From IMG/VR virus record IMGVR_UViG_3300005289_000090, positions 1-21,481 of that record: DNA of 21,481 nt; one strand, given 5' to 3'. This document shows positions 1,934 through 20,383 of this stretch, piece by piece. The notes beneath the pieces were generated by a model, which saw only the letters and a program-made list of their open reading frames with translations, was not told the origin of the DNA and made no database searches. The position numbers and the translations under genes are program-made. The first letter of the stretch is position 1. Each line of letters opens with the position of its first letter. The stretch is from a virus.

Positions 1934-2317
1934 CTATCTAACCAATAAATAGCCAATTCCAAGCAAAAGTAGGTTTCTTTCAAACTTCAGTTTATTTCTC
2001 TCTGCCTTCACTTCTTTTTCGTACTTGTTTAAGGATTCGTTTGCTATCAGCAAGGACTTCTGCGCTTGATTTACCGATTGCTCGGCTATCGTCAACTTCT
2101 CTAATAATATCGCTATTTGTTTGTCTGACCGAATCAGCAAGTCGCTTACTTTCGCCAACCGCTTCTCCTGCTCTTGATTGTTCAGTTCTAACTGTGTCAA
2201 GTTGGCTTCTAATCTGGCCAGTTCTTCCTCCGTTATCTCGTGAGCCATACCAATACACGGCAACGAGAGCAAGAATAACAGCAAAAGCAATATAAATATA
2301 CTTTTTGCTTTGGTCAC
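1934..2317 (-). CDS. Secreted coiled-coil protein, putative spanin partner (127 aa)
   Basis: A GTG at 2315-2317 starts a protein with a strongly hydrophobic N-terminus (FILLLLLFLLSLPCIGMA), probably a signal peptide cleaved after GMA. It is followed by about 80 residues of charged heptad-like coiled coil (TEEELARLEANLTQLELNNQ and onward) and a short hydrophobic C-terminus (NLLLLGIGYLLVR). It sits in the late operon after the lysis genes, and all but its last 58 bases overlap another membrane/coiled-coil protein (1992-2321) in the other frame. This is the Rz/Rz1 spanin arrangement, in which two envelope proteins bridge inner and outer membrane and fuse them in the last lysis step. A cysteine at residue 21 is not in a canonical lipobox, so a lipoprotein o-spanin is not proven. 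Alternatively only this frame is translated. Confidence 0.65.
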   Translation of the reverse strand: MTKAKSIFILLLLLFLLSLPCIGMAHEITEEELARLEANLTQLELNNQEQEKRLAKVSDLLIRSDKQIAILLEKLTIAEQSVNQAQKSLLIANESLNKYEKEVKAERNKLKFERNLLLLGIGYLLVR

Positions 2318-2321
2318 TCAA
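1992..2321 (-). CDS. Membrane-anchored helical protein, putative i-spanin (109 aa)
   Basis: The frame opens with TTG at 2319-2321, seven bases after an AGGAGG motif; a GTG at 2325-2327 is too close to that motif, and more distant upstream starts lack one. The protein begins MSDQSKKYIYIAFAVILA, with one membrane helix at residues 8-25, then about 80 polar residues with a regular hydrophobic pattern (RTEQSRAGEAVGESKRLADS) predicted to be helical. A short N-terminal tail, one membrane helix and a long periplasmic helix is the layout of the inner-membrane spanin Rz. It starts four bases before, and shares 326 bases with, the secreted coiled-coil protein at 1934-2317, which lies in the +1 frame relative to it, the same relation as lambda Rz1 to Rz. 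Both frames look protein-like; which is expressed is inference. Confidence 0.55.
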   Translation of the reverse strand: MSDQSKKYIYIAFAVILALVAVYWYGSRDNGGRTGQIRSQLDTVRTEQSRAGEAVGESKRLADSVRQTNSDIIREVDDSRAIGKSSAEVLADSKRILKQVRKRSEGREK

Positions 2322-2343
2322 AATCACCCCTCCTAAAAAGTTA

Positions 2344-2882: not shown

Positions 2883-3044
2883 CTACCGAAAAACCGTGTA
2901 TACGATTCCTAAAACAGCAACGACAATCACGCCAATAAGGATTAAACCGCCCGATATGATGGTTTTTTTATCAGTTTCAAGAAAATCTGCAACGGCTCCT
3001 AAATCTTCACTTGCTTTATTGACTTCTTTTTTTATGTCAGCCAT
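2883..3044 (-). CDS. Small single-TM protein in the lysis block (53 aa)
   Basis: This is a 53-residue protein, MADIKKEVNKASEDLG at the N-terminus and a single membrane helix at about residues 29-49 (ISGGLILIGVIVVAVLG), ending VYTVFR. The start ATG (3042-3044) lies eight bases inside the amidase gene and has a GGAGG nine bases upstream, so it is well supported although short. Position immediately after the amidase and a soluble charged N-terminus with one C-terminal helix suggest a second holin, antiholin or pinholin-like protein working with the BhlA-type holin. No family is recognised, and a structural or exclusion role is possible. Confidence 0.8.
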   Translation of the reverse strand: MADIKKEVNKASEDLGAVADFLETDKKTIISGGLILIGVIVVAVLGIVYTVFR

Positions 3045-3534
3045 TTTTACATTCCTCCAATACGTTGTTAATTATCTCTGGAAGTTTGGCATACAGGTTT
3101 TTACCCGGGCAAGCTGTGGCAAGTTTATCGCGATGCCCAACAATTGTTTCGGCCGTTACATCAAGGCCGTATGTTTCGCATAAGTCAGCAAGCAATAAAG
3201 TTAATGAATCGACTTGTGCGGCCGCAGGTTCTTCTTCTTCAAAATTACCGCCTACGTGGAGTCCAAGGCTTCGCCAATTATAACCCGGGCAATGTGCGCC
3301 CTGTACGGTTCGCGGCCGACCACGCTCTATACTGCCATCTTTACGAATAACATAGTGATAGCCAATACCTGCCCACCCTTGATTAAGGTGCATCTGATGA
3401 ATCTCTGCGGCCGAATAATCATCACCGGCCGAACCGCCTGTATGATGAATGATTAAGCACTCAACTTCTGATGCACTTAACCTGCTACCGCTATTGGCAA
3501 AGGTTAAATCTGTTTCAATTATGGTTGTCCTCAT
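3037..3534 (-). CDS. Endolysin: N-acetylmuramoyl-L-alanine amidase (Amidase_2/PGRP type)
   Basis: This 165-residue single-domain enzyme cuts the amide bond between N-acetylmuramic acid and L-alanine in peptidoglycan, releasing phage at the end of infection. The zinc site of the T7-lysozyme/PGRP family is visible: LIIHHTGG (H30), GHRDKLATACPG with H134 and C142, and the aromatic GYHYVI (Y59) near the active site. LGLHVGGNFE at 90-99 is the usual family strand. There is no signal peptide and no separate wall-binding domain, so it needs a holin to reach the wall. The ATG overlaps the holin stop as TAATG with AGGTGA just upstream, indicating coupled translation. A single catalytic domain without wall-binding repeats is typical of endolysins that work on thin, outer-membrane-covered walls. 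Confidence 0.93.
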   Translation of the reverse strand: MRTTIIETDLTFANSGSRLSASEVECLIIHHTGGSAGDDYSAAEIHQMHLNQGWAGIGYHYVIRKDGSIERGRPRTVQGAHCPGYNWRSLGLHVGGNFEEEEPAAAQVDSLTLLLADLCETYGLDVTAETIVGHRDKLATACPGKNLYAKLPEIINNVLEECKNG

Positions 3535-3770
3535 TATTCACCTCGCCTCAGTTCGTCAATGTCCTTTTTTACCTCTCCAACATCAGAACGCACACTAGCC
3601 AGCGTTTCCGTCATGTCCCGGAGAGTCCCTTCGATAATTCCTGTTAACCGTTCTTCTCGCTTGCCATTCTGATACATGACATAGATTAGTAAGAGGATAA
3701 ATACTAAAGCCCAAGCTGAATTTGGGTTTGAGAGGATTTCTTTCCAGGGAATGAGTTGTACTATTTCCAA
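3534..3770 (-). CDS. Holin, BhlA/UviB-like (78 aa)
   Basis: This is a 78-residue protein with a short N-terminus (MEIVQLIPWKEILSN), one strong membrane helix (AWALVFILLLIYVMYQ, about 19-34) followed directly by NGKREERL and a charged amphipathic tail. This is the layout of the BhlA/UviB bacteriocin-holin family, which forms inner-membrane lesions to release the endolysin. It uses a TTG start (3768-3770), the only start consistent with the family N-terminus, with AAAGG about ten bases ahead. Its stop overlaps the amidase start. It is the first gene of the lysis block and is divergent from the plus-strand gene at 3850, so a separate promoter for lysis genes would have to lie in the 79-base gap, where I see no convincing minus-strand boxes. 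Confidence 0.85.
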   Translation of the reverse strand: MEIVQLIPWKEILSNPNSAWALVFILLLIYVMYQNGKREERLTGIIEGTLRDMTETLASVRSDVGEVKKDIDELRRGE

Positions 3771-8274: not shown

Positions 8275-9408
8275 TCAGTCCCACCCTTCTGCGGCTAGTC
8301 CATTTGCAAAGAAGATGTTTCTGCCTGATACCGTGAAGTCATAGACCATTTCAGCAGGTTTTAACTCCATGCCTTTTATTTGAGCGTAACCATCAATAGC
8401 AACAATCTCGTCTTGAATATCCTCGACATACTCAAAGCCATTGTTAGTCAAGAATCGTTGTGATTCTGTCGGCTTGATTATGCCTTTATCTGTCAAGACT
8501 TCCCACACAGGACTTTCATGCGGAGGATTGACAAACTCAACCGTTTCGACACAAATATCACCGTTTCTATCAAGCGAATAAACCTTCATTCCTTCTTGAA
8601 TATCTTCAATCAATCTGTCGCCGTCAGGAGTAGCAATCTTTGTACCGCCAGCAAAGCAGATAAGAGCAGAGCCGATAGAACCGACAGCACTCCACACACC
8701 AGAACCGCCATCGCTCTGTGAAGTCGTTGTACTGCCGGTTCCCATCCTGCCATTATAAAAAGTATTAAACAGGTTGGCGGCAGGACTGTAAGCGCTCTGC
8801 GCGTAGCTGTTAAGCTGTGTCGGTTGGAAATATGAAGCCTGTTGTGCAGCAGCATTGTTATTCAGCGTGTTCCCTGCCTGAGTCGCTTGATTGTTAAGTA
8901 GTCCAGCCTGATTATTGATGTAGTTTAGCAGATTGTCAGACGCAGTATTAGCAACAGCTTGCGAAGCATCTTTTATTCCTGCTGTTGAAACCGAACTGTT
9001 GATAACGCCACTATTTGCCCATCTGTTTAGGTTTTTCCCCATCGTGTCATCTAGCGTTCTGCCTATTTTTGAAGTCATGCTGTCCATATACGATTGAGGA
9101 ACTTCGCCGTTAAGCAAACCAGTAAAGCCGCTATTGACATTGCCCATCGTTGTATTGTAGTTACCTGCAAGATCGGTGTAATTTGGATTGTAAGTGTTGC
9201 CTATTGCCGTATTAGCTTGATTTTGCAGGTTGGCAGATTGTTTGATGCCAGGAAGGACATAGCCCATCAAACCAGATTGCAAACTGGCTTCATCCGCTGA
9301 TTGTGCAGGGATATTGCGTTTAGTTGTTTGGCTGCCACCCTTGAAGTCAACAAAATCCATATGCAAACGCTTGATTGTATCCTTTGGGACGATTGTCCAT
9401 ATTCTCAC
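8275..9408 (-). CDS. Virion-associated protein with C-terminal Hint (intein-like) domain (377 aa)
   Basis: Residues 1-250 are Asn/Gln/Gly-rich with repeated AGLLNNQATQAGNTL-like helices, typical of podoviral ejection proteins. From C251 to the end the protein is a Hint domain: CFAGGTKIATPDG (block A), an EDIQEGMKVYSLD strand pair, and VYDFTVSGRNIFFANG (block F). Two key residues are changed: the block B motif normally reading TxxH is TESQ (Q317), and the terminal His-Asn expected after ANG is replaced by LAAEGWD, the end of the protein. Splicing is therefore impossible and cleavage is doubtful; the domain may be a structural relic or cleave by N-to-S shift at C251. The GTG start (9406-9408) follows the previous stop by four bases with AAGGGG upstream. 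Confidence 0.85.
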   Translation of the reverse strand: MRIWTIVPKDTIKRLHMDFVDFKGGSQTTKRNIPAQSADEASLQSGLMGYVLPGIKQSANLQNQANTAIGNTYNPNYTDLAGNYNTTMGNVNSGFTGLLNGEVPQSYMDSMTSKIGRTLDDTMGKNLNRWANSGVINSSVSTAGIKDASQAVANTASDNLLNYINNQAGLLNNQATQAGNTLNNNAAAQQASYFQPTQLNSYAQSAYSPAANLFNTFYNGRMGTGSTTTSQSDGGSGVWSAVGSIGSALICFAGGTKIATPDGDRLIEDIQEGMKVYSLDRNGDICVETVEFVNPPHESPVWEVLTDKGIIKPTESQRFLTNNGFEYVEDIQDEIVAIDGYAQIKGMELKPAEMVYDFTVSGRNIFFANGLAAEGWD

Positions 9409-10194: not shown

Positions 10195-10671
10195 CTAATT
10201 TACACAAGCAAAGCCGCCATACATTTGTAAGGCGGCTTCACAATATGTTTTATGTGCTTCTTCTGGTGTGTTAAAGTATCCTAAATGTTTTCTTTGTTTT
10301 CTTGGCCCAATTTCCGCACGCCACTTTTTATGATATTTACAATAAGCAATTCCTTTTAATCCAGATTTGCAACTTGCTTTGTGTCGTTTATTTTGGGCGT
10401 TTTTAATTTGATTAGCCACGCGAAGATTACTTAAACTGTTGTTTGATGGATTCCCATCTTTGTGGTCAATTTGATCTGGAAGATAATTATACATATATAG
10501 CCACGCTAGTCGATGTGCGCCAATTAATCTTCCTTTAAACCAAATATAACGATAACCACTATCATATTCACATCCAACTATCTTACCTTGTCTAGAACCA
10601 TATTTCCAATAAAATAACCCTGTTTCTTGGTCATACTCTATTTTTTGATGCAAGTTTTCATGTGTTAACAT
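10195..10671 (-). CDS. HNH homing endonuclease with AP2-type DNA-binding domain (158 aa)
   Basis: An N-terminal beta domain (TGLFYWKYGSRQGKIVG) leads into the HNH_3 nuclease core: GAHRLAWLYM with H53, DQIDHKDGNPSNN with D69-H70, and SLSNLRVA with N82. From about residue 103 an AP2-like DNA-binding domain follows (GLKGIAYCKYHKKWRAEI, then GYFNTPEEAHKTYCEAA). HNH plus AP2 is the standard make-up of free-standing phage homing endonucleases, which cut phage genomes lacking the gene and spread by repair. It is wedged between the tail fibre and its accessory gene, is visibly richer in AT than its neighbours, and the only ribosome-binding motif (GGGAGG) is about 15 bases from the ATG. It is a likely mobile insertion unrelated to virion function. 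Confidence 0.93.
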   Translation of the reverse strand: MLTHENLHQKIEYDQETGLFYWKYGSRQGKIVGCEYDSGYRYIWFKGRLIGAHRLAWLYMYNYLPDQIDHKDGNPSNNSLSNLRVANQIKNAQNKRHKASCKSGLKGIAYCKYHKKWRAEIGPRKQRKHLGYFNTPEEAHKTYCEAALQMYGGFACVN

Positions 10672-14793: not shown

Positions 14794-15675
14794 CTAGGCT
14801 AATTTCAGATCAGAAATAATCGCTTGTCCTTTTTCACCCTTGATTTCCAATGTCATTTCGCCCTTAATTACACCTTTCAAAGCATCGTCAGTAGACGGAA
14901 GGTCTTTCTTCTTGAAACGGCGATACCAAGCAATAGACATATACTGCGGATCGAGAACAAAAATCTTGTCATCAGGCATGAAGCGAGAAGCGATAATTTG
15001 AACGCGACCAAAGTCGGTGTCAATAACGTCAATCGCTTCGACCATTTCTTTTTGCTTGGCGTTGATATTCTTCGTGTTGGATGTGGTCAGCTTAGAGATA
15101 TTAACCTTATTGCCGCCAGATACGAGCAGTTTATTCGGTTCGCCGCCAGCATCCCACGCATCCTGTAACGCTTGAGTAATCAGGTCGCGAGTGATAACGC
15201 GAGTAGTGCCGCCGTTCGCCAGTACGTTAGTCGTTACAAGGCCAGTAATGCCTGCCATTTTGCGTGCTACAGAAGTAGATCCAGCTACAGCAGCACCTTG
15301 TTCAGTAACCGCTTTTTCTAAGTCTTTAGCGATTTCCTTCATCGACTTCAACATGTTGTAACCGTATTCATCGTCAACGCCAGCAGGATCAGCGGCCTGT
15401 TGCGATTCGGTGACTTCATAACCACGCTTCATGATTTGGGTGTAATTGCCTTTACGAGTCCGGGCAGGAGCCGCAACGGTAGTATCTGCCGAACCTTCAA
15501 CAAAAGCGTTAGTTGCAGCATCAGACAGTGCATCTTCCGGCCATTCATGATAAGTAGCCGTTGCTTTTGTCGAGCCAATCATAGTGACAATCGGAGTTTG
15601 AGTCGGGGAAATATTGGTGATTACATTAGTCAGATCTTCTCTATTAGTCGTTTCATCATAAGTAAATTTTGCCAT
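14794..15675 (-). CDS. Major capsid protein, DUF5309 / SU10-type (293 aa)
   Basis: The N-terminus MAKFTYDETTNREDLTNVIT leads to ISPTQTPIVTMIGSTKATAT, then HEWPEDALSDA and RTRKGNYTQIMKRGYEVT. This series is characteristic of the DUF5309 capsid family (SU10-type, HK97 fold). The middle helix (MLKSMKEIAKDLEKAVTEQG) is the spine helix, and the C-terminal part (DTDFGRVQIIASRFMPDDKI, DPQYMSIAWYRRF, GQAIISDLKLA) forms the P-domain and tail strands. The 293-residue length fits a capsid protein without its own scaffold domain, consistent with the separate scaffold gene just upstream. Translation starts two bases after the scaffold stop. A terminator-like hairpin follows the gene. Confidence 0.92.
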   Translation of the reverse strand: MAKFTYDETTNREDLTNVITNISPTQTPIVTMIGSTKATATYHEWPEDALSDAATNAFVEGSADTTVAAPARTRKGNYTQIMKRGYEVTESQQAADPAGVDDEYGYNMLKSMKEIAKDLEKAVTEQGAAVAGSTSVARKMAGITGLVTTNVLANGGTTRVITRDLITQALQDAWDAGGEPNKLLVSGGNKVNISKLTTSNTKNINAKQKEMVEAIDVIDTDFGRVQIIASRFMPDDKIFVLDPQYMSIAWYRRFKKKDLPSTDDALKGVIKGEMTLEIKGEKGQAIISDLKLA

Positions 15676-15677
15676 TA

Positions 15678-16697
15678 TTAAGTGTCACTCCTTCGTAAAT
15701 ACCCTGCTTCACGCAAGGTTTGTAATTGATCTTGTGGTTTCAGCTTGCCAATTTGCTTAAAATTAACTGTTGGCTGTTTTGTTTCCGTTGTCGCTCCAGG
15801 TGATTCAGTTTTAAGTGGCTGTTTCTTAGGCTGTTGTACTACTTGCGGTTTTGGCGCATTTTTAGCAGTCATAGCCTGATTAAAATGTTCTTCCACTAAC
15901 TGAATGTCTTGGACTGTCGGATTCCCTGCCAGCAGCCTTGATCTTGATTCAAATACCTGAGCAAATCGTTGTCGATTGTCAGCTTTTAGCAATCCATACA
16001 TGGCATCGTCAAAAGTTGTCATAATGTCGGGGTTTTGTTCAATCTGCGCCTTTGTGTTCTGCACATAGTTTTGAATCGCTTGACGTTGATAATTGTCTTG
16101 ACTGACCATGTTGAAGCACTTCATGTATACGGCATGATGTAGAGGATCGCCGACAATTCCAGCAGGATCAGGAACAAACTCATTAGGATCTGTAATTCCT
16201 AATTCTTGCATCGCTGCCGTTAATGCTTGCTTATGGATAGCCTCATATTCTGCCGCTTTATTGGTCTGCTGTTGTGGTTGCGCCTTGAGTTGTTGCAGTT
16301 CATATTTGATTTGCTCTAACTCCTTGCGCTCACTTGACAATGCCTGAGTCTTTTTCGTATAGTCATCGCCCTTTTGGGCAAGTTCAATCAACTTAGACAA
16401 AGGTAGTTTCCTTGATTCGCCTTCAACCTTGATCTCATACTCAGGTTCCTGCTCCCGCGAATCCGTTCCCGGTTGTTCGCTTGCATTTGCCGTTTCTGAT
16501 ATCTCAGTTTGAGGTTGTTCAGTCTCTTTTTGTTCTGACTCGCCATAGAATCCGTGTTTCTTTAACAGGTCTAGCTGTTCGCTTGGATGTGCATCGGAAT
16601 AGGCTGAATAGTCTATATTGCTGTCCGCTTCGGTTGCAGCAGGAACATCGTTGAATCTCTGTAGGTCAAAATTGAACTGTCTTTCGACTTGGTTCAT
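15678..16697 (-). CDS. Capsid scaffold-type protein (339 aa)
   Basis: The protein is highly charged and Gln/Glu-rich. After NFDLQRFND comes an acidic, low-complexity section (SEQKETEQPQTEISETANAS), then a coiled coil at about residues 118-145 (ALSSERKELEQIKYELQQLK), followed by helical segments and a Lys/Pro-rich tail that includes TVNFKQIGKLKPQDQLQTLR. Position immediately before the capsid gene, size, charge and coiled-coil content are those of podoviral scaffold proteins, which direct capsid assembly and leave the shell. No serine-protease motif is visible. The start ATG has GGAGAG seven bases ahead. A terminator-like hairpin lies just upstream, so its expression may be set separately from the packaging genes. 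Confidence 0.8.
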   Translation of the reverse strand: MNQVERQFNFDLQRFNDVPAATEADSNIDYSAYSDAHPSEQLDLLKKHGFYGESEQKETEQPQTEISETANASEQPGTDSREQEPEYEIKVEGESRKLPLSKLIELAQKGDDYTKKTQALSSERKELEQIKYELQQLKAQPQQQTNKAAEYEAIHKQALTAAMQELGITDPNEFVPDPAGIVGDPLHHAVYMKCFNMVSQDNYQRQAIQNYVQNTKAQIEQNPDIMTTFDDAMYGLLKADNRQRFAQVFESRSRLLAGNPTVQDIQLVEEHFNQAMTAKNAPKPQVVQQPKKQPLKTESPGATTETKQPTVNFKQIGKLKPQDQLQTLREAGYLRRSDT

Positions 16698-16724
16698 GGT
16701 ACACTCTCCTTTTTATTTGGCAAT

Positions 16725-16754
16725 ATAAAAGGCGACTAGCTTTATCTAATCGCC
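16725..16754 (-). terminator. Terminator between the HExxH gene and the scaffold gene
   Basis: On the minus strand a 9-pair stem (GGCGATTAG with CTAGTCGCC, arms 16746-16754 and 16731-16739, one G-T pair) with a six-base loop is followed by TTTTATATT. The stop codon of the HExxH gene lies in the stem. It is oriented with the operon, so it should reduce read-through between packaging and scaffold/capsid genes. Confidence 0.75.
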
Positions 16755-17042
16755 AAAGATTAGCTTATTGTCTTTTAGGACTTGATGAAGCATGTTTCCA
16801 AACGCAGATACAAGAACTTCATCTGCTCTTAAATCCGATCTGCCGATTGCATCAAATATTCCATGCGTTATTTCATGACAAAGACACTGTGTTTTATAGT
16901 CCGGTCCTAAATAGTCACGCATCCATATTTCTTGCGGTAAATAACGGATACAAGCATCATTACCAGCTTGTTCTAAAGTTTCATTTTTATCTTGCCGAAC
17001 AGTATAGACGATGCCGCCTATTTTGATTTTGTCAGGTATCAT
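16746..17042 (-). CDS. HExxH zinc-metallopeptidase-like protein (98 aa)
   Basis: This is a 98-residue protein with beta-strands IKIGGIVYTVRQDK at the start and a helix carrying CHEITHGIFDAIGR, in which H56-E57-x-x-H60 is a canonical zinc-protease motif. A downstream glutamate (E75, in RADEVLVSAFGNMLHQVL) is placed as the third zinc ligand, as in gluzincin-type small phage proteases. The family is common in phage genomes, but its substrate is unknown. Position between portal and scaffold genes makes head-protein maturation an attractive guess. GGGGAGG precedes the ATG at good distance. Its stop codon lies in a terminator stem. Confidence 0.8.
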   Translation of the reverse strand: MIPDKIKIGGIVYTVRQDKNETLEQAGNDACIRYLPQEIWMRDYLGPDYKTQCLCHEITHGIFDAIGRSDLRADEVLVSAFGNMLHQVLKDNKLIFGD

Positions 17043-17050
17043 TGTTCCTC

Positions 17051-17083
17051 CCCTAAAATAAAATTAGCAGGTTGTTACCCTGC
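17051..17083 (-). terminator. Weak terminator-like hairpin after the 83-aa gene
   Basis: On the minus strand GCAGG and CCTGC (arms 17079-17083 and 17067-17071) form a short five-pair stem with a seven-base loop, followed by TAATTTTATTTT. The stem is short and may only attenuate. Confidence 0.4.
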
Positions 17084-17096
17084 CGCAGATTTGGGA

Positions 17097-17348
17097 TCAC
17101 CTCCCTTCTGACCGCACCTCTTTAATAACAGCTTTAGCCATATCAGCATTGGCAATCTTGCCTTCCAGCTCGTTCTGTATCTCTCTGAGTGCCATTAAAC
17201 GCTGTTTAATACTTTCTGAGTCCTCACATTCCAGCCTGCGATAAAGCTGCTCCCTGTACTGGTTGAATAGCGGAAGGATCAACTCCAATGTTTCCTTGGC
17301 CTCCTGCCCCTCCTGGTATTGCCGGGACAATTCCTCCAACTTGTCCAT
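17097..17348 (-). CDS. Coiled-coil protein overlapping the portal 3' end (83 aa)
   Basis: This 83-residue, charged and probably all-helical protein begins MDKLEELSRQYQEGQEAKET and ends ADMAKAVIKEVRSEGR, with a regular leucine/isoleucine spacing (LELILPLFNQYREQLYRRLE and LMALREIQNELEGKI). The ATG lies eight bases after CGGAGG, a strong ribosome-binding site, and the first 125 bases overlap the 3' end of portal in another frame. Because the peptide has a balanced, protein-like composition, unlike the Gly/Gln-rich portal tail it overlaps, I consider both frames real. Small coiled-coil proteins next to portal occur in several podoviruses, but the function is unknown. Confidence 0.75.
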   Translation of the reverse strand: MDKLEELSRQYQEGQEAKETLELILPLFNQYREQLYRRLECEDSESIKQRLMALREIQNELEGKIANADMAKAVIKEVRSEGR

Positions 17349-19104
17349 TCATCATGCCTCCGTTTTGTTGATTCATCACAAAATCGTCTGTGTTCTTGTA
17401 ACCGATTTCTTCAATGATTTTCTTTGCAACATTATAGAATTGTGGCGGGCCAGCCATGCCTACCTGCGCTAACTCAGTCACAATCTGTTTGAGCATCATT
17501 AGATTTTGCAGATTGGTCTGTTTAGCACCACTACCCATGCCAGCATTGACAACTAGATCAAATTCTCCGTTTAGATCATCAGGGTAAATCGTCATTGGGC
17601 CGTTAGTGAGTCGAATAATGGTTTCTTGGTCAATAAACTTTTGATTCAATTCAATGAGGAAACGGAACAGGTCAGACAAGCCACTTTCTGCAAATATACG
17701 AGCGATTAGCTCTAAGCGTTGGTTGGCTTGCTCTGTGATAATTGAAATGCCTGTAGCTGTTTTGTTAAGAGAGTTGGAGTCTAACCCCTGATTGTACTTG
17801 GTTATGCCTGTTCTGTTCTCTTTCTGCGTATCAATGTATTCAAGCATATTGAAAGTCCAACTCTGTAACTGCGGAGCCGGAACAGGCTGCATAGCTTGGC
17901 GTATGTCATCGGTATTTAACCTGATAACTTGTCTTCCTTCAATGACATCGTTTATATCGACTAACTTCTGCATGTTTAAGGCTATCTGCGGATTGTTTGA
18001 TAGAGAAATATTATGTGTTATCTGACGCATGATAGCTGTTTTCAAGTGCTGTAGCTGTGCGATAAGGTCAACAAAGCCCTTCTCAGGCCAAATCTGATGA
18101 GGGTCAAGTCTAGGCGACAGCGTGAAGAATGGATGTCTGCCGTAGGTGTTTTCTTCAATGCGAAGGATAACGCCGTTTGACACTGTGACAATCAAAGGGG
18201 TTAATTCTCCGTCTGGATCATCGCTGACATTCATTGAGACATAGCACTCATACAGCTCGACTTTCTTTCTACCTGAGTCTGTCTGATTCGATTTATCACG
18301 AATATTTTCATTGTTCTGCTCATCAAGAATGGTATACTCAGGCTCTTTCGCCTTTTCAGCCAATCGCTCAACATTCTTATATAGCCCTGCTTCTTCTTGC
18401 TTGCGGAGATAGTCAATGTTTCTAATTAGCCGATGAGCAACAAAATCACAATCATTTAAGCTTGTAGCATCAGGACTAAATCTAAACTCACTAGCTAACA
18501 CATTCCTAATTCTTGGCTGATTCTTGGCAATTTGTTCAGCCTCAAAGACAACTAAAAAAGATCCGATATTCACATCAGGCTCTACACTAACAACCTTTAT
18601 ATTTGGATCGCTGATAAACATTTCTAGAGCATCAGGAGATAGGGCAATCTGCTGTTGGACTGTTTTATACTCTCGTTCCCAATCAACCTTGATAATGCCC
18701 ATGTTGGTTATGAGAGCGTCCTTTGCCCATTGATAAAACACCATGAAGAACTTGTTTTTCTCTAGCTGATAATTGATTAAGTCCTGCATCTTCTGCGCTC
18801 GTTCATCGTCACCATCTGAACCGTCAGCACCTTGTATAGTCACCACATCAGTAGAGCCAAAGAAGATTTTCTGTATGCTAGGCATGGTTGATTCAATGGT
18901 ATCGGCAACATCTGTAGAAACAAGGTCAGAGAACTTACTGAGTCTAGGGAATTTCTTCTTGTAATACTCTGGCTTAGCATGATAAATGTCATAACGCTCA
19001 ATTACAGCAGGCTCGATTGTATCTTGATAGTGAGTGTTAGAAGCGTCAATGTCCTGTTGTAGCTTGCCGATAATTAACTCTTCCTGTGTCTTACTTAGCT
19101 TCAT
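17224..19104 (-). CDS. Portal protein (626 aa)
   Basis: The protein has the podoviral portal layout. The N-terminus (TQEELIIGKLQQDIDASNTH) is helical, followed by FPRLSKFSDLVSTDVADTIE and STMPSIQKIFFGSTDVVTIQ, then the mid-domain (DWEREYKTVQQQIALSPDAL, VLASEFRFSPDATSLNDC and onward), the long barrel helix region (TGITKYNQGLDSNSLNKTAT, GISIITEQANQRLELIARIF) and a Gly/Gln/Met-rich tail (MNQQNGGMMNGQVGGIV). It forms the dodecameric ring at the head vertex through which terminase pumps DNA. It follows the large terminase gene by ten bases, with GGAGGTGA before the ATG. The Gly-rich tail overlaps the next gene by 125 bases. Confidence 0.9.
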   Translation of the reverse strand: MKLSKTQEELIIGKLQQDIDASNTHYQDTIEPAVIERYDIYHAKPEYYKKKFPRLSKFSDLVSTDVADTIESTMPSIQKIFFGSTDVVTIQGADGSDGDDERAQKMQDLINYQLEKNKFFMVFYQWAKDALITNMGIIKVDWEREYKTVQQQIALSPDALEMFISDPNIKVVSVEPDVNIGSFLVVFEAEQIAKNQPRIRNVLASEFRFSPDATSLNDCDFVAHRLIRNIDYLRKQEEAGLYKNVERLAEKAKEPEYTILDEQNNENIRDKSNQTDSGRKKVELYECYVSMNVSDDPDGELTPLIVTVSNGVILRIEENTYGRHPFFTLSPRLDPHQIWPEKGFVDLIAQLQHLKTAIMRQITHNISLSNNPQIALNMQKLVDINDVIEGRQVIRLNTDDIRQAMQPVPAPQLQSWTFNMLEYIDTQKENRTGITKYNQGLDSNSLNKTATGISIITEQANQRLELIARIFAESGLSDLFRFLIELNQKFIDQETIIRLTNGPMTIYPDDLNGEFDLVVNAGMGSGAKQTNLQNLMMLKQIVTELAQVGMAGPPQFYNVAKKIIEEIGYKNTDDFVMNQQNGGMMNGQVGGIVPAIPGGAGGQGNIGVDPSAIQPVQGAALSQAGM

Positions 19105-19114
19105 GTGTCACCTC

Positions 19115-20383
19115 CTACATAGCACCAGCTATTGGTATTTTAACGTTGCTTCTCGCTGGCTCGACATACTGCGATTCGTTTTCCATTGCATACCGTACAG
19201 AGTCTATGATGTGGTTGTCCCTATCCACTGGTTCCGGCAATATGTTTCCGTCTTTATCCTCTCGCCAACGATAAGTAGTAAACTCATTGATAGCATCTTT
19301 TAGCTCTTTATGAATGACTATCTGTAGCTTTTGAAGCCATTGAATACCAAAATTAACAGAGTCCTTGCCCTTCTTAGCTGCTGTGGCATTAACACCGTAA
19401 TTCCTAAGTTCTTGTATACTCTTAGGCTCTGAGGAATCGCAAGTGATTATCTGATTATCTATCATATTTTTGATCTCAGCAGACAGAAGGTCATTGGTGT
19501 ATCCATAGCAATACTTAGCATCTAAGATGTAGAGAGTTTGGCGTTTGCGGTCATAATGCAAGTTAGTGAGCGCAGCAGGATCGTTAGCGAAGCCAAAATC
19601 ACAGCCATTCTGAAATGTTGAACAGGTTCGCTTAAACTCTGTCAAATCTTCCACTCGCCAGTTCTGGAATATGGCCTTTCCAAGCACACCCCATGAGCCA
19701 TTGAGGTATACATCGCGATAATACTTGTCAGTCGTATTCTCTAACCGTTGAATATCATCCTCAGTCAAGAATCTGTTATCTCTGTAGGTTGTCTTTAGGA
19801 TAGATATGCGCTCATCTTTGTACTGTGTGCTGTCATCCTGCCAATGGCCTTGAAAATAGTTAACGTATATCCAATGTGTCATATAGATAGGGTTGAAGGA
19901 TAGGACAATGCGCTTCTTAACCTTGCTCTGCCCTCTAAGGCGTTTGTCTAACTGTTGTATGTCCTCGTATTCTGATTCTGTTGCTTCTTCAAACCAAATA
20001 TCAGTTATAACACCTTGTGATGGAGTGATTGACTTTACTTTCTCAGGATCATCAAGTCCACAGAAAACAATCTGATAACCATTAGAACAGGTGATAATCA
20101 AGTCTGTCATGTTAACCGTGAACAGCTTGCCAACCTTGAAGAAGGATATAGCTTTCTGTATCTCATTGAACACTGACCGCTTTAATGTATTGGCTACCTT
20201 ACGAATGACTAAGTAATTATGACCGCCTTTGAGCATATCCAGGACACATCTTTGAGCTAGGAAATATGACTTACCAGAGGATGAACCGCCGTAATATATT
20301 TCTAGCGGTGCAATCCAGCCAAGATAAGGCTTATAGACAGGATTGAACACTTTGGGGTCTATGGTTAGATTGACTTTTTGCAT
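19115..20383 (-). CDS. terL: Terminase large subunit
   Basis: This is the ATPase and nuclease that cuts concatemeric DNA and drives it into the head. The ATPase domain has Walker A GGSSSGKS (residues 32-39), a hydrophobic strand ending in D128 followed by E132-E133 (ITDIWFEEATE, Walker B and catalytic Glu) and a coupling motif LSFNPIYMTHW at 161-171. The C-terminal RNase H-like nuclease shows D262 (GCDFGF), D316 (IITCDSSEP) and D394 (HIIDSVRYA). This order and the 422-residue length fit the Terminase_3 (PBSX/T7-like) family. The ATG has a weak GGAAG site and lies inside the 3' end of the 68-aa gene (19 bases overlap), so translation may be coupled. Portal follows. Confidence 0.96.
   Translation of the reverse strand: MQKVNLTIDPKVFNPVYKPYLGWIAPLEIYYGGSSSGKSYFLAQRCVLDMLKGGHNYLVIRKVANTLKRSVFNEIQKAISFFKVGKLFTVNMTDLIITCSNGYQIVFCGLDDPEKVKSITPSQGVITDIWFEEATESEYEDIQQLDKRLRGQSKVKKRIVLSFNPIYMTHWIYVNYFQGHWQDDSTQYKDERISILKTTYRDNRFLTEDDIQRLENTTDKYYRDVYLNGSWGVLGKAIFQNWRVEDLTEFKRTCSTFQNGCDFGFANDPAALTNLHYDRKRQTLYILDAKYCYGYTNDLLSAEIKNMIDNQIITCDSSEPKSIQELRNYGVNATAAKKGKDSVNFGIQWLQKLQIVIHKELKDAINEFTTYRWREDKDGNILPEPVDRDNHIIDSVRYAMENESQYVEPARSNVKIPIAGAM

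Follow-up and report, generated by a model that had tools for sequence, protein, structure and literature searches.

An overlapping gene pair with staggered starts in Negativicutes phages, a likely lipoprotein-independent analogue of two-component spanins

In this study, we analyzed a viral DNA stretch of 21,481 nucleotides (the window; IMG/VR record IMGVR_UViG_3300005289_000090) and identified an overlapping gene pair that probably represents a dual-coding outer-membrane lysis module of Negativicutes phages, that is, a lipoprotein-independent, dual-start analogue of two-component spanins. The two frames, the selection acting on them, their start codons, the surrounding cassette and the host group are backed by comparative sequence data; expression, topology, pairing of the products and membrane disruption are inferred. 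The word spanin is used here by functional analogy and does not imply family membership, because the exported product fails the lipoprotein criterion of classical spanins and any membrane fusion or outer-membrane disruption by the pair is itself an inference.

Two overlapping genes and their start codons

Both genes lie on the minus strand. The TTG frame, here named the i-frame (1992..2321), starts at 2321 with its stop ending at 1992 and encodes 109 aa; the GTG frame, named the o-frame (1934..2317), starts at 2317 with its stop ending at 1934 and encodes 127 aa. The former is annotated on a phrog_1026 match and the conservation tests below, the latter on its signal peptide, helix and hydrophobic C-terminus together with the same tests. 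The frames share 326 bases, their start codons are separated by 4 nt (+1 register), and an AGGAGG Shine-Dalgarno (SD) sequence (minus strand, 2334..2329) is common to both starts, 7 nt from TTG and 11 nt from GTG; the same layout was found in a close relative (L002) and in loci with ATGAATG. Coordinates, starts, common AGGAGG and overlap length, when re-read from the sequence, all agreed with the original prediction, which had also likened the +1 register to that of lambda Rz1 and Rz. The register is correct, but it is not diagnostic of spanins, since 116 o-spanins have been reported in the -1 frame (PMC6139136).

Several lines of comparative evidence showed that both frames are real genes. 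First, both occurred in 104 of 105 related loci: the i-frame was open throughout the DNA common to the two genes, and in 104 it was matched in the expected frame by an i-frame profile built independently of the o-frame. Both were likewise present in all 20 more diverged loci, and the +1 register was always the same. No intact locus keeping only one frame was present among these 105 related and 20 more diverged loci; the few with a damaged or truncated frame (L142, L191, L194 and L201 among them) are likely to be decaying prophages or contig ends. Second, when the synonymous codons of the o-frame were permuted, the i-frame stayed open in 3.3% of permutations of the window, or in 0.7% when family codon usage was applied; across 96 loci it was open in every one, against a permutation mean of 5.6% (1.4% with family codon usage), and the third frame was open in none of the 96. 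Finally, we used a conditional simulation, in which one protein was held fixed, its codons were redrawn and the conservation of the other frame was compared with expectation. In all 28 disjoint pairs, whichever protein was held, the other frame was more conserved than expected (mean z 4.0 and 5.2); the pairs, although disjoint, are not phylogenetically independent. In the third-frame control, the mean z was 0.5 with the o-protein held and rose to 2.5 with the i-protein held, as would be expected if the o-frame constrains the same sites.

These results give good support, from comparative sequence and with expression only inferred, for purifying selection on both frames and for a real overlapping gene pair. 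The original prediction was to be refuted if homologues lost one frame or if one frame showed no selection; both possibilities were tested and neither was fulfilled. The rival explanation, that one frame is open merely by accident, as a by-product of the codons used in the other, draws some support from the fact that helical proteins with repeated codons can keep another frame open over long stretches, as the 5.6% of permutations illustrates. Against it stand the open i-frame in all 96 loci versus none for the third frame, the reciprocal excess conservation and the lack of any intact one-frame locus. A single-frame accident is thus all but excluded, having been ruled out by codon permutation, third-frame control and conditional simulation.

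The arrangement of the starts was examined in a non-redundant set of 73 loci (70% identity), where start choice per locus is an inference from conservation. Canonical starts lay exactly 4 nt apart in 31 of the 73, which was the commonest offset (ATGAATG, TTGAGTG and similar), followed by +10 in 22, -2 in 14 and +7 in 12. When ATG was required for both starts, the +4 offset was seen in 20 loci and any other in at most 6. Within the 4-nt class, the SD core was located 4-12 nt upstream of the i start, mostly 5-7. A canonical start could not be assigned in one frame for about 10 of 99 loci, and four non-redundant loci had no canonical i start but an ATTG, readable as ATT (i) plus TTG (o). Near-simultaneous initiation of two full-length partners had been put forward as a new arrangement; as a sequence layout it is a recurrent feature of the family, and the actual use of both starts remains inferred. 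Such dual initiation is plausible because E. coli ribosomes initiate both overlapping frames at AUGUG sites (PMC9841429).

Alternatively, only one start might be used and the second protein produced by programmed -1 frameshifting near the start. An A-rich lysine region after the start in many loci and the four ATTG loci would be in favor of this possibility. On the other hand, slippery heptamers in the needed phase occurred in only 19 of the 73 loci and at scattered positions, whereas staggered starts downstream of a single SD recur. We consider this explanation very unlikely, and frameshifting was rejected as a general route because the heptamers are not conserved.

Host group and lysis cassette

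Searching viral contigs with the o-frame yielded four close relatives of the window, plus distant ones, all of which keep both frames open in +1 register. A narrow o-frame alignment profile gave no match in genome contigs, and the host group was reached via the terminase large subunit (TerL) instead. The closest copy of the window TerL in a bacterial genome was that of Sporomusa silvacetica (66%), and this genome carries the pair. A nine-sequence o-frame profile then matched 90 of 380 genomes of this class (at least about 90), the class being called Negativicutes by inference from Sporomusa and an Anaerovibrio MAG that falls in the same class. Outside it, the profile matched 2 of 291 Clostridia genomes; in the classes to which a Desulfobacterium MAG and a Bacteroidetes MAG belong, it matched 4 of 192 and 1 of 198, respectively. 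None of these off-class matches was accompanied by the i-frame, and they therefore look like chance coiled coils. The pair is thus widespread in Negativicutes, with no confirmed case elsewhere among the classes searched; related terminases in Clostridia come without it. A search of a phage collection returned only one distant relative, and a plasmid collection none.

Some genomes contain several copies of the pair, for example L181, L182 and L183 together in one genome, and L152 has two copies on one stretch of about 2 kb (1489-1917 and 3168-3404). The broader profiles A9 and A10 also gave weak matches (E above about 1e-11) to proteins of ~380-395 aa in Negativicutes and in the class of G048, which were left out of the counts as coiled-coil background with their i-frames unchecked; those in Negativicutes might possibly be EnvC-like peptidases.

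From the terminase and the distribution of the pair, the phage represented by the window is inferred to infect Negativicutes. The original prediction had called for a diderm host in spite of a Bacillota-type holin. This was supported: Negativicutes are Bacillota with an outer membrane, and the occurrence of the pair in phages of diderm Bacillota reconciles the two observations.

The pair is also linked to a lysis cassette, as spanin genes are required to be, in both the window and its relatives. In the window, the minus-strand order is a BhlA-type holin-like gene (3534..3770; PF10960, 1.4e-6), an Amidase_2 endolysin (3037..3534; PF01510, 1.2e-22), a small single-span membrane ORF that is putatively a second holin or an antiholin (2883..3044), an HNH endonuclease (2344-2748) and then the pair. 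ORFs resembling the small membrane ORF also lie upstream of the pair in L001-L004. Among 86 large ORFs upstream of the pair, about 63 matched peptidoglycan-hydrolase or endolysin-type families (Amidase_3 28, Amidase_2 18, GH25 12 and a few other hydrolases) and 6 matched a holin family. The HNH endonuclease is missing at this position in the close relatives L002 and L004, and is for this reason likely to be a mobile insertion into the cassette.

Elsewhere on the minus strand, the window encodes a metallophosphoesterase (833-1894), whose sole phage match was Halorubrum tailed virus BLv36 (31.6%); a virion-type protein (8275-9408; CFAGGTKIATPDGDRLIEDI...) ending in an intein-like Hint domain (PF13403 7e-6, just below the curated cutoff); an HNH and AP2 endonuclease (10195-10671), likely a homing enzyme; and, at 14794-20383, SU10-like capsid and portal proteins with a Terminase_3-type large subunit. 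The portal protein had no close relative among sequenced phages (best about 30%).

Predicted topology of the two products

In the window and its relatives, the i-frame protein begins with K/R, followed by ~20 hydrophobic residues and a polar helix, which corresponds to an N-terminal membrane helix (N-in) and a periplasmic helix. It therefore satisfies the i-spanin criterion of PMC6139136 (short, with an N-terminal transmembrane domain and a periplasmic C-terminus). AF2 predicted helices at residues 3-28 and 33-108 with low confidence (67). The window protein matched phrog_1026, an Rz-like spanin family (1.3e-5), and weakly the holin family phrog_1296 (0.011). More specifically, phrog_18860 was matched by 28 of 69 i-frame proteins (best 3e-52) and is the i-frame family itself, listed in PHROGs as of unknown function. 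The spanin assignment should be read with caution here, as the matches to spanin PHROGs are weak and coiled-coil sequences are prone to chance matches.

The o-frame protein, which is the better conserved of the two, carries in the window a signal peptide with an SPase I-like site (GMA/HE, judged by eye without a predictor). AF2 predicted a helix at residues 30-126 (mean pLDDT 88), which is long (~97 residues, about 14.5 nm), and the central region is proline-free in 71 of 73 o-frame proteins. The hydrophobic C-terminus ends in K/R in 71 of 73 (in R in the window). In the 67 proteins scored, the uncharged C-terminal run spans 11-17 residues, preceded by a median net charge of +3 and followed by one K/R; because of this preceding positive charge and short length, the tail appears, from sequence alone, to fit a normal C-in inner-membrane span poorly. 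The o-frame also matched phrog_89, 739 and 214, none of the PHROGs fitting it specifically, and Pfam and NCBIfam scans gave only generic coiled-coil matches, which were left out of the evidence.

A conserved lipobox was sought in the 73 o-frame proteins and was absent: a loose pattern was met by 16, several of them within the hydrophobic core, and by 24 when T was allowed at -1; the window protein (SLPCIGMA) has P at -1. The o-spanin lipoprotein criterion (PMC6139136) is thus failed, and a canonical lipoprotein o-spanin was rejected. Cysteines were present after residue 40 in 24 of 73 o-frame proteins and after residue 35 in 38 of 73 i-frame proteins; the window pair has none in its periplasmic parts and fails the intermolecular-disulphide criterion of known spanins. 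At the o-frame cleavage site, [AG][TI]CSA recurs in many loci; it may be fixed by the overlapping i-frame codons or may be a relaxed lipobox with T at -1, both being possible.

With respect to the individual products, the original prediction fared well: an N-terminal membrane helix and long helix of i-spanin layout held for the TTG product (with low AF2 confidence), a signal peptide and hydrophobic C-terminus held for the GTG product (its helix being supported by AF2), and the lack of a classical lipobox held for the o-frame product. The candidate spanin pair as a whole is supported as conserved, selected, cassette-linked, present in phages of diderm Bacillota and with one partner of i-spanin layout; outer-membrane disruption is inferred only.

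Another possibility is that the o-frame product alone acts like a unimolecular spanin, with its N-terminus towards the outer membrane and its C-terminal segment in the inner membrane, the i-frame being accessory. Its export signal, long helix and C-terminal hydrophobic segment reproduce the layout of T1 gp11 minus the lipobox, and its stronger conservation would point the same way. However, it has no conserved N-terminal anchor, its C-terminal run is short and flanked by positive charge on the side opposite to that expected for C-in insertion, and the i-frame is likewise under purifying selection, which makes this reading very unlikely.

In the two-component model that we prefer, one mRNA with one SD would present two staggered start codons in different frames, and ribosomes would translate the same ~330 bases into two full-length partners (that both starts are used is inferred from conservation). 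The i-frame product would be anchored by its N-terminus in the inner membrane with its helix reaching into the periplasm; the o-frame product would be exported by a type I signal peptide, form a long rigid helix and insert its short hydrophobic tail into the outer membrane. Once holin and endolysin have acted, the two products would span the envelope and fuse or disrupt its membranes like Rz/Rz1, a protein anchor replacing the lipid anchor of the o-spanin. Such a replacement would be expected in hosts without LolA and LolB. Negativicutes have no homologues of either (PMC5007114), and the outer-membrane proteome of Veillonella parvula provided no evidence of outer-membrane lipoproteins, although not conclusively (PMC5491611). 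In Halanaerobiia, which are likewise diderm Bacillota, the presence of Lol homologues has been proposed. For Negativicutes, our inference is that phages infecting hosts of this kind could not depend on an o-spanin that is a lipoprotein, and that the o-frame tail is the expected substitute.

Both genes could also be real but have a non-spanin role, for example as a lysis timer or antiholin, or as a factor in envelope stress or superinfection whose place in the cassette is coincidental. In favor of this, the functional assignment is based on layout and position, a lipid anchor is lacking in the o-frame partner, the i-frame family is of unknown function and the window protein has its weak holin match. 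On the other hand, the pair is confirmed only in a diderm class and is absent beside related Clostridia terminases, separate holin genes are present, and an envelope bridge would require just such a pair of long periplasmic helices carrying their membrane segments at opposite ends. A non-spanin role is therefore considered unlikely.

Relation to known systems and significance

Like Rz/Rz1 of lambda, T7 18.5/18.7 and P2 LysB/LysC, the pair consists of two small envelope proteins encoded in overlapping frames in a lysis cassette, one with an N-terminal inner-membrane anchor and a periplasmic helix, the other exported. In contrast with the Rz/Rz1 type, the exported partner is not a lipoprotein and has an almost proline-free helix and a C-terminal hydrophobic tail. 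Most embedded o-spanins begin about 0.4-0.5 of the way along the i-spanin (PMC6139136), whereas the starts of the Negativicutes pair are as a rule 2-16 nt apart with near-complete overlap, which fits poorly with all three two-component classes of that study (embedded, overlapped and separated). The unimolecular spanin T1 gp11 shares with the o-frame product the N-terminal export signal, long periplasmic part and C-terminal hydrophobic segment; the o-frame product differs in that it lacks a conserved lipobox and that a second frame is conserved with it, and fails the unimolecular-spanin criterion. Finally, E. coli AUGUG and GUGUG sites likewise place two different-frame starts behind one SD and yield two proteins (PMC9841429), with the same 2-nt offset as in the -2 class of the pair; those sites are scattered, whereas the stagger described here is class-wide in one gene pair and mostly 4 nt.

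No earlier description of the pair, and nothing relevant on spanins in Negativicutes or diderm Firmicutes, was found in the open-access literature searched (subscription-only papers were outside its scope). Previous surveys filtered o-spanins by lipobox, and spanins were reported absent from Gram-positive phages (PMC12596118). With spanins described as limited to phages of classical Gram-negatives (PMC12596118, PMC6139136), phages of diderm Bacillota appear spanin-less. In a host class lacking the lipoprotein export that an o-spanin needs, the pair provides a concrete answer, and it is a candidate for the other anchors that PMC6139136 considered possible but outside its criteria. A bolder reading, towards which we lean only slightly, is that near-congruent genes behind one ribosome-binding site form a class-wide, lipoprotein-independent, two-component spanin system, and that phages of Lol-less diderm Bacillota use it to break the outer membrane. 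The pair is also an unusually clean case in bacterial viruses of two long genes overlapping almost end to end with a class-wide start layout, through which the evolution of overlapping genes, dual initiation and membrane disruption without a lipoprotein can all be tested directly.
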